From Candidatus Zixiibacteriota bacterium (GTDB taxonomy: Bacteria > Zixibacteria > MSB-5A5 > GN15 > JAAZOE01): 42,770 nucleotides of DNA. How positions within the stretch are numbered: the stretch's first letter is position 1; each line of letters starts with the position of its first letter. The translations under genes were made by a program, and so were the position numbers. A model generated the notes under the pieces. The model did not search any database. It was not told the origin of the DNA and saw nothing but the letters and a program-made list of their open reading frames with translations. Of this stretch, positions 8,248 to 13,240 are shown piece after piece. Location: NCBI GenBank assembly GCA_030668485.1, contig DAOUTW010000036.1:1-42770 (forward strand). Reading direction: 5' to 3'.

Positions 8248-8261
8248 AAATGGGAGGCCTT

Positions 8262-8639
8262 TTGAATATTCCTGAAGAGCTTTTGTATACCAAAGTGCAT
8301 GAGTGGATACGTGTCAATGGTGATACCGTTGAAATAGGAATCACTGATTATGCTCAGGGTGAGTTGGGAGATATTGTTTTTGTCGAGCTACCCGAAGAGG
8401 GATCGGCCGTGGAAGCGGAGCAGCCTTTCGGGACTATCGAAGCGGTGAAGGCCGTTTCTGAATTATTTTCGCCCGTCACAGGAACCGTTTCCGGCGTAAA
8501 TAGTATGATTGAAGAGGATGCCGGGATAATCAACCAGGACCCTTATGGAGAAGGGTGGATGATTAGGATTAAAATTTCTGATACCTCGGAACTAGACACT
8601 CTGCTCAAAGCGGAGCAATACAAACAATTGTTGGATTAA
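8262..8639 (+). CDS. gcvH: glycine cleavage system H protein
   Basis: This 125-residue lipoyl carrier shuttles the aminomethyl group between the P, T and L proteins. It starts NIPEELLYTKVHEWIRV, has GITDYAQGELGDIVFVELPE, and the lipoylation site G-T-I-E-A-V-K-A-V-S (K63). The end DPYGEGWMIRIKI...LLKAEQYKQLL is typical. I favour the TTG at 8262 because it gives the family's usual MNIPE start and follows GGGAGG, though the 4-nt spacing is short; an ATG at 8250 is the alternative and would add four residues. gcvPA follows after 12 nt. No gcvT is present in the window. Confidence 0.95.
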   Translation: MNIPEELLYTKVHEWIRVNGDTVEIGITDYAQGELGDIVFVELPEEGSAVEAEQPFGTIEAVKAVSELFSPVTGTVSGVNSMIEEDAGIINQDPYGEGWMIRIKISDTSELDTLLKAEQYKQLLD

Positions 8640-8651
8640 TAAAGTCGAACT

Positions 8652-10016
8652 ATGCCCTACATACCGAATAGCAACACCGACATAAAGAAGATGCTGGAAA
8701 CGATCGGCGTTTCCGGTGTCGATGATCTTTTGGCGCCGATTCCTGAAAACCTACGCACGACTTCGGCCTTGAAGCTGCCCGAGCCGATGGCTGAGCCGGA
8801 ATTGATGAGACATATGGAAGAACTGGCGCAGAAAAACGATACCAGTGAGATATCCTTTGTCGGGGGAGGGATATATAACCATTATGTACCGCCGGTCGTT
8901 TGGACCCTGGCGATGAGGCCGGAATATGCCACCGCCTATACTCCTTATCAGGCGGAAGTAGCCCAGGGAACGCTTCAGGCGATCTATGAGTTTCAATCGC
9001 ATCTGTGTCGTCTGACCGGCATGGATGTCGCCAATGCCTCGATGTACGACGGAGCGACCGCCGTTGCCGAAGCGGCCATGCTTGCAGTACACCATACCGG
9101 GCGGGAACGGATCGTGGTTTCGGAAACGGTCAGCCCTCTCTTCCGCGAAGTTTTGTCATCGATAATTTCCGGGCGCGATCTGGAAGTGGTGACCATTCCC
9201 GCTGCCGGAAACGTTACCGACTTCGGCAAAATCGGGGACTATGTTGATGATCGGGCCGCTTGCCTGATTTTGGGACAACCCAATTTCTTTGGATATCTTG
9301 AAGAAATTGAAATCGGGGAGAAAGCTATTCATGAAGCCGGTGGCTTAATGATAATGGCTGTCGATCCGATCTCGCTGGGAATGTTGAAGACTCCGGCCGA
9401 ATACAACGCCGATATCGCAGTCGGTGAGGGGCAGTCATTGGGAATACCCAGGAATTTCGGAGGTCCCTTACTGGGTCTTTTCACCGCCAGGCAGGAATAT
9501 GTTCGTAAAATTCCGGGAAGGCTGGTTGGCCGGACGGTCGATACCGACGGGAAAACCGGTTTTGTCCTGACGCTGCAAACCCGCGAACAGCATATTCGCC
9601 GCAGCAAGGCAACCTCCAATATCTGCACCAGCGAGGCGCTATGCGCCACGGCTGCGACTATTTATATGTCCCTGATGGGCAAAGCCGGTTTGCCGCGCGT
9701 GGCAAGACTTTCGGCGGAGCATGCTCATTACCTGGCGGAGAAGATTGCTGCCATCGACGGTTACCGGATCTGGACGGACAAGCCGTTCTTCAAGGAATTT
9801 GTTATCGAGACTCCGGTGCCGCCGGCGCAGATAATAACAGAAATGGCCGCGGTCGGGATAGCGGCAGGAATAGACCTGAGCCGTTTTTACCCCGATCTGG
9901 ACCATTATCTTTTGGTAGCGGTCACGGAGATGGTTTCATTTGAAGATTGCAACCGTTTCAGGGACGGGCTGACGCTATTGGCCGCCGGAAAAAAACTGAC
10001 GGGAGCATTAGCCTGA
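8652..10016 (+). CDS. gcvPA: glycine dehydrogenase (decarboxylating) subunit 1
   Basis: This 454-residue protein is the N-terminal half of a split P protein. It shows MPYIPNSNTDIKKMLETIG, SFVGGGIYNHYVPPVV, TAYTPYQAEVAQGTLQAIYEFQ, MYDGATAVAEAAML and GEGQSLGIPRNFGGPLLGLF, all characteristic of GcvPA. It lacks the PLP lysine, which is in GcvPB. With GcvPB it decarboxylates glycine and transfers the aminomethyl group to GcvH. No good ribosome site precedes the ATG, which is 12 nt after gcvH, so translation may be coupled. The partner gcvPB is 1.8 kb downstream beyond three other genes, whereas gcvPA and gcvPB are often directly adjacent. Confidence 0.96.
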   Translation: MPYIPNSNTDIKKMLETIGVSGVDDLLAPIPENLRTTSALKLPEPMAEPELMRHMEELAQKNDTSEISFVGGGIYNHYVPPVVWTLAMRPEYATAYTPYQAEVAQGTLQAIYEFQSHLCRLTGMDVANASMYDGATAVAEAAMLAVHHTGRERIVVSETVSPLFREVLSSIISGRDLEVVTIPAAGNVTDFGKIGDYVDDRAACLILGQPNFFGYLEEIEIGEKAIHEAGGLMIMAVDPISLGMLKTPAEYNADIAVGEGQSLGIPRNFGGPLLGLFTARQEYVRKIPGRLVGRTVDTDGKTGFVLTLQTREQHIRRSKATSNICTSEALCATAATIYMSLMGKAGLPRVARLSAEHAHYLAEKIAAIDGYRIWTDKPFFKEFVIETPVPPAQIITEMAAVGIAAGIDLSRFYPDLDHYLLVAVTEMVSFEDCNRFRDGLTLLAAGKKLTGALA

Positions 10017-10053
10017 ATGAAATGGATATGTTGCCGACGAAAAGTGATTGCCG

Positions 10054-10395
10054 ATGAACCAGTTTGAAGACAACAATAAAGAACCGTATTACGACGATGT
10101 CGAGATCAGATCGAACTGGGTTGCGGTCGCTGAAGCAGAAAACCGGACAGTGGCGGAGTTTGCCGTGAATGGATTGAGATCGTATGATATCCCCGCGGTT
10201 CTCGATGCCCGCCCCGGAGTCTTGGGCAGCGCCGGGTTGACTCTGAGGTCGATGCGGACCGGCAAATTAGAAATGTTTCGAATCATGGTGCCTCCCGATT
10301 ATCAGGAGGAGGCGACAGAGGTGGTCAAAATCTTTTTGGGTGGCGCTCAAAATAATGATGAGCAAAATGATGAATCCATAAACGGGGAGTCCTGA
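10054..10395 (+). CDS. DUF2007-type protein, first of a tandem pair
   Basis: This is a 113-residue soluble protein. An acidic N-terminal stretch precedes one DUF2007-like domain: W-V-A-V-A-E-A...EFAVNGLRSYDIPAVLDAR...FRIMVPPDYQEEATEVVKIFLG. DUF2007 is a small ferredoxin-like fold thought to have a signalling role, but its function is not established. It is clearly paralogous to the next gene, sharing the order W-(V/I)...LR-x-x-DIPAVL...(V/I)-K-(I/V)-x-L-G, but it has no zinc ribbon. The start at ATG 10054 is weakly supported. It lies inside the gcv cluster, and there is only 2 nt between its stop and the next ATG. Confidence 0.7.
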   Translation: MNQFEDNNKEPYYDDVEIRSNWVAVAEAENRTVAEFAVNGLRSYDIPAVLDARPGVLGSAGLTLRSMRTGKLEMFRIMVPPDYQEEATEVVKIFLGGAQNNDEQNDESINGES

Positions 10396-10397
10396 TT

Positions 10398-10790
10398 ATG
10401 CCATACTGTCCCAAATGCCGGTATGAGTATGAGAATAACATCAGCGTTTGCCCCGACTGTGACGAGAAGCTGGTCATGTCGTTGCCACCGGAGCCGGATG
10501 CCGACGATGAAAAGATTTTTAAGGAATGGATTCCGCTGGCCCGGCTGCAGTCGACGCAACTGGCCGAAATGACTCTTGAGGCGTTGCGGGCTAAGGATAT
10601 CCCGGCGGTGCTGCAATCGGGAGTCGGTTATTTCGGATATGTCGGTACACAGGGATTATCTTCTTATGCCCCGGTCGGGGGCGGTTATACGCTGCTGACG
10701 CCCAAAGAGTATGTTGACCGGGCGGTTGGTGAGGTGAAAGTAATTCTGGGAGAGGATTGGGAAAAATCGAAACTGGTAGAGACCGATTGA
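10398..10790 (+). CDS. zinc-ribbon DUF2007-type protein
   Basis: This is a 130-residue protein. It opens with a two-knuckle zinc ribbon (CPKCRYEY...CPDCDEKL, residues 4-24), then an acidic linker and a DUF2007-like domain (WIPLARLQSTQLAEMTLEALRAKDIPAVLQSG...LLTPKEYVDRAVGEVKVILG). The zinc ribbon plus DUF2007 layout is known in other bacteria; function is unknown. GGGGAG lies 9 nt before the ATG. It sits in the gcv cluster and is followed after 16 nt by the thioredoxin-like selenoprotein candidate, so the three are probably co-transcribed. Confidence 0.78.
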   Translation: MPYCPKCRYEYENNISVCPDCDEKLVMSLPPEPDADDEKIFKEWIPLARLQSTQLAEMTLEALRAKDIPAVLQSGVGYFGYVGTQGLSSYAPVGGGYTLLTPKEYVDRAVGEVKVILGEDWEKSKLVETD

Positions 10791-10806
10791 CAAAAGAGAG
10801 GACAAG

Positions 10807-11766
10807 ATGAAAAAAACTGCTTTGATGTTTTTGCTGCTTCTTGCCTGTGCAACCCTGGCTCCGGCCAATGAGGTAGCCTTTTTCGAAACCTATGAACAGG
10901 CGCTTCAGGCTGCGGGTGAAAAATCCCAGAATATGTTGATCACCTTTTATACCGATTGGTGAAGCTGGTGCAAGAGACTCGATACCGTGACGTATCGAAA
11001 CGAAGAAGTGATCGCGCTGAGCGCTAACCTGGTCAATGTACAAGTGAATGCCGAGAAAGATACTCTTTTGCGGCGTGAATACGGCGTGGCCGGATTTCCG
11101 ACAGTGGTCCTGGCGAAGCCGGACGGTTCGGAAATTGACCGGATATACGGTTATGCCGACGGTCCCAAGTTCGTGGAAATCGTAAACGATTATCTGGCCG
11201 ATCGCAATACACTCGGCGATTACCTGCGGCGAGCCGAGACCGAGCCGACGATGAAATTGTATTCGCTGGTAGCGGAGAAATATACCGGCCGGAGTAAGTT
11301 CGACGAGGCTGAGAAGTTCTACCGGAAAATTTTGCAGGAAGATGCCAATAACAAGCAGGGTTATTCCGACAGTGCCTTGTTCTGGATGGGGCAAATGAAA
11401 TCACGGGCCAAACAGTATGCGGTGGCAGAGGATGTTTTTTCCAAATTTCCGCTGACCTATCCGGAGTCGGATCTGGCTGACGATGCCATGTACGAGATGG
11501 CCAAGACGAAGCGGTATGCGGAGAAGTTTGATGACGCGATCGCCTCGTTCAAGGATTTTCTAAAGACCTATCCCGAATCCGAGTTGGCCCAGGATGCCGA
11601 GATATATATAGCCTTCTGCCACGACAAGAAGGGGGCCAAGGATGAAGCCTTGCAGTTGTATAATAAGTTTTTAACCGATCATCCCGAAGCCTCCGACTCC
11701 ACCTGGGTTAAAAAACAAATCGATAAAATCGAAAACCCGCCTCCGGAGGAGGAGAAGAAAAAATAA
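10807..11766 (+). CDS. thioredoxin-like TPR protein, candidate selenoprotein (TGA at codon 52)
   Basis: The reading frame from ATG 10807 to the stop at 11764-11766 is open except for TGA at 10960-10962. It encodes 319 residues if TGA is read. Residues 1-20 look like a signal peptide (MKKTALMFLLLLACATLAPA; an L-L-A-C lipobox at C14 is possible). Residues about 24-140 are a thioredoxin fold of the Thioredoxin_7 type: ITFYTDW-TGA-SWCKRLD, later VNAEKD, GVAGFPTVVLAKPDG with the cis-proline. The TGA falls exactly where relatives have the first Cys of W-C-x-W-C, giving U-S-W-C. Residues about 150-310 are TPR/tol-pal-like repeats (EAEKFYRKIL, AEDVFSKFPLTYPESDLADDAMYEMAK, AIASFKDFLKTYPESELA) and an acidic-lysine tail. 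GAGAGG lies 5 nt before ATG. A SECIS-like hairpin follows the TGA. If TGA were a stop, the second part would need a GTG inside that hairpin with no ribosome site. A TGC-to-TGA mutation or read error is the alternative. Confidence 0.82.
10979..10998 (+). promoter_or_regulatory. candidate bacterial SECIS element
   Basis: Sixteen nt after the TGA, TCGATAC (10979-10985) pairs perfectly with GTATCGA (10992-10998) around the 6-nt loop CGTGAC. The apical loop begins 23 nt after the TGA and has G at its second position. Known bacterial SECIS elements have a short upper stem, a small loop with a G in the first two positions, and this spacing. SelB would bind it to deliver Sec-tRNA. SelB and SelC are not in the window. 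Confidence 0.72.
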
Positions 11767-11791
11767 AGAAAGAGGTCTGAGCAACAGGGTT

Positions 11792-13240
11792 ATGACAGAC
11801 GATGTTTTGATATATGAGAAATCGCGTCCCGGTCGGACCGGATTTTCCCTGGCGGAAACCGATGCCGGCGACAAGAATGTGGACGCGTTGATCCCGGAGA
11901 AATATCTGCGGGCGGTACCGGCCGAACTTCCGGAAATTTCCAAGCCGGAACTGGTGCGCCATTATGTCGAGATGTCGACTCGCAATCATCATATCGACAA
12001 AGGTTTTTATCCGTTGGGATCATGTACCATGAAATACAATCCCAAGATCAACGATACCGCCGCCGCGCTTCCCGGTTTTGCCAATCTGCATCCGCTGGCT
12101 GAAGAGGGAAACTGCCAGGGGGCTTTGGAATTGATGTATAACCTGGGAACGATGCTGGCAGAAATTACTGGTTTCGCAGGGACAACTCTGCAGCCGGTCG
12201 CCGGGGCTCAATGTGAACTGGTCGGGCTGCTGGTTATCCGGGCGGCGATGAAGAAACGGGGAAATGTTCGCAAGAAGATCATTATCCCCGATTCGGCGCA
12301 CGGCACCAATCCGGCTTCGGTGATAATGGCCGGTTATGATGTGGTACAGATCAATTCCACCGAACGCGGGATTCTATCGGCGGATGATGTGGCCCGTGTT
12401 ATGGATGAGGAAACGGCCGGGATTATGATCACCAATCCCAACACCCTGGGATTGTTTGAATCGGAAATTGAGCAGATCGCCAGGATAGTTCATGATGCCG
12501 GAGGGCTTCTGTATATGGACGGAGCCAATCTGAATGCTCTTCTGGGGCATGTCAAGCCGGCCGATATGGGCTATGATATGGTGCATTTCAACTTGCATAA
12601 GACCTTTTCAACGCCGCATGGCGGCGGTGGACCGGGCGCCGGGGCGTTGTCGGTAACCGAGGAATTGATTCCGTTTTTACCGCGGCCGATGCCGGCCAAA
12701 GACGGCGGTCGGTATTATCTGGATAACGACCGGCCTGACAGCATCGGGCGGATGCACAGCTTTTACGGCAATTTCGCCGTGTTGCTGCGGGCTTATACCT
12801 ATATCTGTCATCTCGGAAGCAAGGGGCTCAACCGTGTCTCGGAAAACGCGGTTTTGAATGCCAATTATCTCAAGGAGCTGTTGAAGGGCAAATATGAACT
12901 GCCTCATGACACGATTTGTATGCATGAGTTCGTTCTGTCCGGTTCGCAGCAGAAAAAACGTGGGGCGAGGACGTTGGATATCGCCAAGCGTTTGCTCGAT
13001 TTCGGCTTCCATGCCCCGACTATTTATTTCCCCCTGATCGTCAGCGAAGCGTTGATGATTGAGCCGACTGAAACCGAGTCGATAGAATCGCTGGATCGTT
13101 TCGCCGCCGCGATGCTCCAGATCGATCGTGAAATAGACAAAAACCTCGAACTGGTTACCTCGGCTCCCCATAATACGCCGGTGAAACGATTGAATGAAGT
13201 ACAGGCGACGAAAACGCTCGACATAAGCTATAAAGGGTAG
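11792..13240 (+). CDS. gcvPB: glycine dehydrogenase (decarboxylating) subunit 2
   Basis: This 482-residue PLP enzyme is the C-terminal half of the split P protein. It has STRNHHIDKGFYPLGSCTMKYNPK, TLQPVAGAQCELVGLL, PDSAHGTNPASV, NPNTLGLFE, and the PLP-lysine motif HFNLHKTFSTPHGGGGPG with K270. It ends with TPVKRLNEVQATKTLDISYKG. The ATG at 11792 is 25 nt after the thioredoxin-like gene, with GAGGT and AGGG upstream. It is followed by a terminator-like hairpin, which probably closes the accC-gcv transcript. Confidence 0.96.
   Translation: MTDDVLIYEKSRPGRTGFSLAETDAGDKNVDALIPEKYLRAVPAELPEISKPELVRHYVEMSTRNHHIDKGFYPLGSCTMKYNPKINDTAAALPGFANLHPLAEEGNCQGALELMYNLGTMLAEITGFAGTTLQPVAGAQCELVGLLVIRAAMKKRGNVRKKIIIPDSAHGTNPASVIMAGYDVVQINSTERGILSADDVARVMDEETAGIMITNPNTLGLFESEIEQIARIVHDAGGLLYMDGANLNALLGHVKPADMGYDMVHFNLHKTFSTPHGGGGPGAGALSVTEELIPFLPRPMPAKDGGRYYLDNDRPDSIGRMHSFYGNFAVLLRAYTYICHLGSKGLNRVSENAVLNANYLKELLKGKYELPHDTICMHEFVLSGSQQKKRGARTLDIAKRLLDFGFHAPTIYFPLIVSEALMIEPTETESIESLDRFAAAMLQIDREIDKNLELVTSAPHNTPVKRLNEVQATKTLDISYKG

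Follow-up and report, generated by a model that had tools for sequence, protein, structure and literature searches.

A predicted exported thioredoxin-TPR selenoprotein with repeated selenocysteine/cysteine switching in Candidatus Zixiibacteriota

In a stretch of 42,770 nucleotides of DNA from a bacterium of the uncultured phylum Candidatus Zixiibacteriota (Zixibacteria; the whole stretch is referred to as the window below), the gene at positions 10807-11766 is very probably a genuine selenoprotein gene, the UGA at codon 52 of which would be decoded as selenocysteine (Sec). We put the probability of this reading, which is based on sequence comparisons, at about 0.95, since the UGA is aligned with cysteine (Cys) in homologous genes, the full Sec machinery is present, a hairpin close to the codon bears marks of selection and covariation, and UGA serves as a stop codon elsewhere. 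Within its genome (4.5 Mb, 139 contigs, 99.95% complete), the window corresponds to contig 85. The gene and its elements, with the basis of each assignment in brackets, are the following:

10799..10802, plus strand: ribosome-binding site AGGA, with the ATG 4 nt further on (read directly)
10807..11766, plus strand: predicted selenoprotein gene, thioredoxin/TPR, 319 codons, TAA stop (frame, Pfam, orthologues, structure model)
10807..10869, plus strand: predicted N-terminal signal peptide MKKTALMFLLLLACATLAPAN (composition)
10888..11178, plus strand: thioredoxin domain (PF00085/PF13899), DsbD-gamma-like, residues 28-124 (Pfam, NCBIfam, structure model, fold search)
10960..10962, plus strand: TGA, predicted selenocysteine 52, the U of U-S-W-C (frame and homologue alignment; Cys52 in 45 homologues)
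10969..10971, plus strand: TGC, resolving cysteine 55 (sequence and alignment)
10979..10998, plus strand: bacterial SECIS hairpin UCGAUAC-CGUGAC-GUAUCGA, 7 bp, 6-nt loop (folding, comparison, bSECIS rules of PMC13188914)
11212..11736, plus strand: helical TPR domain (TPR_6, YbgF/BamD-like), residues 136-310 (Pfam, NCBIfam, structure model, fold search)

Re-translation of the 319-codon frame gives exactly one TGA, at codon 52, as a sequence-only reading of this DNA had described. With U at this codon, the product reads MKKTALMFLLLLACATLAPANE...LITFYTDW-U-SWCKRLDTVTYRN..., and the TGA thereby encodes the first active-site residue of the thioredoxin domain (DW-U-S-W-C). The ribosome-binding site and the signal peptide that had been placed upstream of the TGA were both recovered, the latter as a prediction from the composition of the N terminus; in many homologues, the signals are of the lipoprotein type (e.g. 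..SGC). Standard ORF calling reports only 10987-11766, starting with a GTG that corresponds to Val61 and lies within the loop of the hairpin 3' of the TGA. The warning of the earlier reading was thus appropriate: standard gene callers would drop both the signal peptide and the active site. Differences at codon positions 1/2/3 amount to 0.47/0.34/0.63 upstream and 0.31/0.26/0.60 downstream of the TGA, which indicates that the sequence is coding on both sides of it.

With regard to the domains, the protein is matched by PF00085 (44.7 vs 23.5 bits), PF13899 (38.6 vs 27 bits) and PF13098 (38.8 vs 27 bits). An AlphaFold2 model, for which 22 family sequences were used and Sec was replaced by Cys, reached a pLDDT of 93.8 and displays a beta-alpha thioredoxin topology followed by TPR helices. 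Among the 25 matches listed for NCBIfam release 20, no model, including those of selenoprotein families, scored above its curated cut-off. Pfam, NCBIfam, structure model and fold search agree on the thioredoxin fold and the TPR region downstream that the sequence-only reading had proposed, and the protein is predicted to be exported and to consist of a DsbD-gamma-like thioredoxin joined to a TPR domain of the YbgF type.

The gene is present in 97 of the 132 Candidatus Zixiibacteriota genomes (E <= 1e-30). Alignment of 98 homologues, which had been suggested as a check on the identity of residue 52, revealed TGA at the site in 50 genes, a Cys codon (TGC or TGT) in 45 and a Ser codon in the remaining three, and the proposal that the TGA stands at the first active-site Cys is borne out by 95 of the 98, which have Cys or TGA in this column. 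In the sample of the home family, which comprises seven species of six genera, all species carry the gene (53-58% identity), with a single TGA at the site in six of them and TGT in the seventh (L027), the sequence of which was also found exactly in record JAAZOE010000400.1 (L144). Since the orthologues come from six genera and the TGA recurs at the same codon, the match is far beyond chance. Cys55 is invariant in the 22-sequence alignment. A tree built with the site masked requires at least 15 changes between Sec and Cys (18 when Ser is counted), 9 to 11 of which are forced by well-supported branches. On these sequence comparisons, the family is phylum-wide in Zixibacteria, within the range searched, with repeated Sec/Cys switching. 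The three homologues with Ser at the Sec/Cys position are L068, L072 and L119; the second Cys is also gone in L072 and L119, and the fold can apparently survive without the redox pair, since these two have neither residue. Two search matches (G063:C1:3983-4774 and G074:C11:93033-93887) were reported with one TAG besides the TGA.

The components needed for Sec insertion, whose presence had been proposed as another check, were all found in the source genome: selC (tRNA-SeC with anticodon TCA, i.e. UCA in the RNA) scored 73.5 bits, with the cut-off at 47, and SelA (505.9 bits), SelB (327.8 bits) and SelD (381.2 bits) each scored above their cut-offs. The SelD gene has an in-frame TGA of its own, in the motif SCAGU (L018:1531-1533; G000:C39), and SelD is accordingly a predicted selenoprotein; many SelD proteins are known to contain Sec themselves. 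Across the phylum, tRNA-Sec was detected in 106 of the 132 genomes. Among the genomes with a TGA form and no tRNA-Sec match, selA was found in G001, G005, G029, G041 and G071, and a piece of selB at a contig edge in G097. Searches for tRNA-Sec and selA gave no match, and those for selB no clear match, in two drafts with a TGA form (G004 and G094), where the machinery is probably missing due to assembly gaps.

The loop of the hairpin (CGUGAC) starts 24 nt after the UGA, with 23 nt between, and has G at its second position. The bSECIS model specifies an apical loop of 3-9 nt with a G as its first or second nucleotide, a stem of 4-16 bp, a distance of 16-37 nt from the UGA and a minimum free energy of at most -7.5 kcal/mol (PMC13188914, Fig. 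2A). The hairpin conforms to this model in its loop, its stem, the place of the G and the distance from the UGA, and its energy is borderline, with -7.0 kcal/mol for the bare hairpin and -8.0 (centroid) to -9.4 kcal/mol with flanks. Folding of the single sequence gave no signal relative to dinucleotide shuffles (z of -0.35 to -1.3), and comparative tests were therefore needed. Among the columns of the home-family alignment, 77 hold an amino acid other than M or W that never varies, and in just seven of these is one codon used throughout all seven genes. Six of the seven are the consecutive codons 58-63, i.e. the hairpin (hypergeometric P about 3e-8, uncorrected for shared ancestry). The TGT form L027 retains the entire hairpin; fossil SECIS elements after Sec-to-Cys conversion have been reported previously (PMC1794560), and L027 is of the same kind.

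In the sister family f2, the corresponding hairpin is UNGACAC-GGUC-GUGUUNR. All seven pairs and the GGUC loop are present in 21 of 21 Sec forms, among which pair 2 is swapped between C-G and G-C (8 and 13 sequences) and pair 5 of L079 has gone from C-G to U-A through two synonymous changes. All pairs plus a GG loop were found in 6 of the 16 Cys forms of f2 (P = 2e-5 vs Sec forms, uncorrected for shared ancestry). Relative to synonymous shuffles, folding 3' of the site is stronger in Sec forms (mean z of -0.92) than in Cys forms (-0.11; P = 1.4e-4, again uncorrected for ancestry). A generic bSECIS screen at -7.5 kcal/mol did not separate the two groups, with 25/50 Sec vs 18/48 Cys forms (P = 0.23), in part because fossil hairpins persist in some Cys forms; with looser cut-offs, chosen post hoc, the groups came apart (39/50 vs 21/48 at -6 kcal/mol). 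No hairpin was found under the rules of the screen in five Sec forms. These results argue that the hairpin is under RNA-level selection, with covariation, and suggest that this selection on the SECIS lasts as long as a lineage uses Sec and no longer. Together, the Cys/TGA column, the sel genes and the hairpin under such selection support the selenoprotein candidacy that had been raised from the window.

Readings of the TGA other than Sec insertion have to be weighed against these observations. The TGA is one base away from the Cys codons and the assemblies are largely metagenomic drafts, as would suit a base that was read or assembled wrongly, or a pseudogene in which a Cys codon (TGC/TGT) has mutated to the nonsense codon TGA; this is contradicted by the recurrence of the TGA at the site in 50 of the 98 genes, across many genera and assemblies, and the frames are intact on either side with coding-type divergence, which makes such an origin extremely improbable. 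If UGA were reassigned throughout the genome to one of the standard amino acids, for instance Trp or Gly, it would likewise be found in frame. However, among the ordinary stops of the window TGA is the most frequent one, ending 16 of the 31 long genes, and the genetic code is thus not reassigned; moreover, selA and selB of the source genome are free of in-frame TGA, the TGA column aligns with Cys and not with Trp or Gly, and the genome encodes a Sec tRNA with a TCA anticodon, leaving this explanation with a practically negligible probability. Termination always competes to some degree with Sec insertion (SelB/RF2 competition), and this competition, as well as the standard ORF call of 10987-11766, is compatible with the UGA being a real and perhaps regulated stop that separates a short peptide from a downstream piece starting at GTG 10987. 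We regard this as very improbable, given that the GTG is located in the hairpin loop and is frozen solely as part of the hairpin, that its product would stay in the cytoplasm as a fragment lacking the active site, and that the Cys homologues read straight through the site.

If codon 52 is decoded as Sec, SelB and Sec-tRNA(UCA) would bind the hairpin at 10979-10998 during translation and Sec would be inserted at this codon. The protein would then be exported via its signal peptide, and its thioredoxin domain may act like the gamma domain of DsbD or like a periplasmic thioredoxin: the selenolate of Sec52 would attack a disulfide or an oxidised substrate, Cys55 would resolve the intermediate as a selenenylsulfide, the TPR domain would dock a partner, and a DsbD/CcdA-like donor would re-reduce the thioredoxin domain. 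Judging from the family, a role of the protein as disulfide reductase is rather likely. Alternatively, Sec may be present and serve in something other than a DsbD- or thioredoxin-type exchange, such as peroxide or selenium handling, or the protein may be a TPR scaffold with a secondary active site. The Ser residue at the site in three homologues, two of which (L072 and L119) are also without the second Cys, leaves some room for such a role, but position 52 is occupied by Cys or Sec in 95 of the 98 homologues and Cys55 is invariant in the 22-sequence alignment, which makes such a role fairly unlikely.

The order of thioredoxin and TPR domains is shared with E. coli YbbN/CnoX, which is a cytoplasmic co-chaperone. 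Its structure (PDB 3qou) was the top fold match by E-value, but the global superposition is poor (TM 0.26-0.29) and YbbN has no Sec. The gamma domain of DsbD (PDB 1uc7 and 2fwg) was among the best domain matches, with TM values of 0.72-0.77 over the target and 26-27% identity, and the C-terminal part of DsbD was matched in NCBIfam with 2.4e-14. Against full-length DsbD (NF001419), however, the score was 52.8 bits, below the cut-off of 330, with just residues 21-128 matching the C-terminal domain; compared to DsbD, the Zixibacterial protein lacks the membrane domain, has Sec for Cys and carries an additional TPR tail. Similarly, the C-terminal thioredoxin part of the rhodanese/DsbD-fusion selenoprotein TsoB (NF045694) is similar (5.3e-15), whereas the family score of 54.5 bits falls below the 805 required, and the rhodanese and membrane parts are absent from the Zixibacterial protein. 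The TPR half superposes on the TPR domain of YbgF/CpoB (PDB 2xev) with TM 0.82-0.85 over the target, and NCBIfam YbgF was matched with 7.8e-20; YbgF has no thioredoxin domain, and the score of 71.6 is under the YbgF cut-off of 90.1. Among described selenoproteins, the PF13098 UxxC 'Thiol:disulfide interchange protein' and the PF00085 Sec-thioredoxin likewise have a thioredoxin fold with Sec at the first Cys (Table 1 of PMC13188914), and the Zixibacterial protein corresponds to the PF13098 UxxC class by its domain score (given above) and its motif U52-S-W-C55. It differs from the families of PMC13188914, as judged from their names and descriptions, in its long TPR fusion, its location in a gcv operon and, within the range searched, its distribution in Zixibacteria.

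The neighbourhood of the predicted selenoprotein gene comprises the following genes:

8250..8639, plus strand: gcvH, glycine cleavage H protein
8652..10016, plus strand: gcvPA, glycine dehydrogenase subunit 1
10048-10395 and 10398-10790, plus strand: two small conserved genes without Pfam match, often at the same place in relatives
11792..13240, plus strand: gcvPB, glycine dehydrogenase subunit 2, directly 3' of the selenoprotein gene

In 89 of the 94 relatives with enough sequence, gcvPB has the same orientation and begins within 400 nt 3' of the gene. A gene for a redox protein with predicted export is thus retained inside a glycine-cleavage operon (8250-13240 of the window). The two small genes, for which a Pfam search at 1e-5 gave no match, appear to be related to each other, as either query matches both positions in relatives; the second (10398-10790) has a zinc-ribbon-like start of the form CxxC...CxxC. 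From the anatomy alone, with the Sec gene in the same operon as gcvPB and a few bases 5' of it, the Sec codon could be imagined as a sensor through which selenium governs glycine catabolism: scarce Sec-tRNA would lead to a stop at UGA 52, the resulting long untranslated stretch would lower gcvPB by polarity, and selenium supply would thereby set the expression of glycine decarboxylase. We consider this improbable, and the sensor is disfavoured as the cause of the synteny because many Cys-form lineages have the identical gene order.

A UxxC thioredoxin-like selenoprotein is of a known kind. A 2026 review counts 119 prokaryotic selenoprotein families or subfamilies, several of which are UxxC thioredoxin-like, and describes no thioredoxin-TPR fusion. 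No report on selenoproteins of Zixibacteria or Zixiibacteriota was found in the literature searched, which covered few subscription journals. From what the sequences indicate, the protein appears to represent an undescribed selenoprotein family, and the family, its phylum and its record of Sec/Cys switching appear to be new. This apparent family would add a domain architecture of its own, a predicted exported thioredoxin plus TPR. About 50 Sec and 45 Cys versions are available from a single syntenic locus of the phylum, with SECIS decay visible in the Cys forms, and the family would serve well as a natural experiment to learn under which circumstances and for what reason bacteria swap selenocysteine and cysteine.

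An apparent second selenoprotein family, likewise undescribed, was encountered in the source genome at L041:871-2040 (minus strand; G000:C11:8855-10024). This gene encodes another exported thioredoxin-like TPR protein of 390 aa with one in-frame TGA, in which the motif is DDUE[FY]C and a hairpin CCGCU-CGUGA-AGCGG is located 3' of the TGA. It is found in 45 of the 132 genomes of the phylum, mostly with a single TGA.
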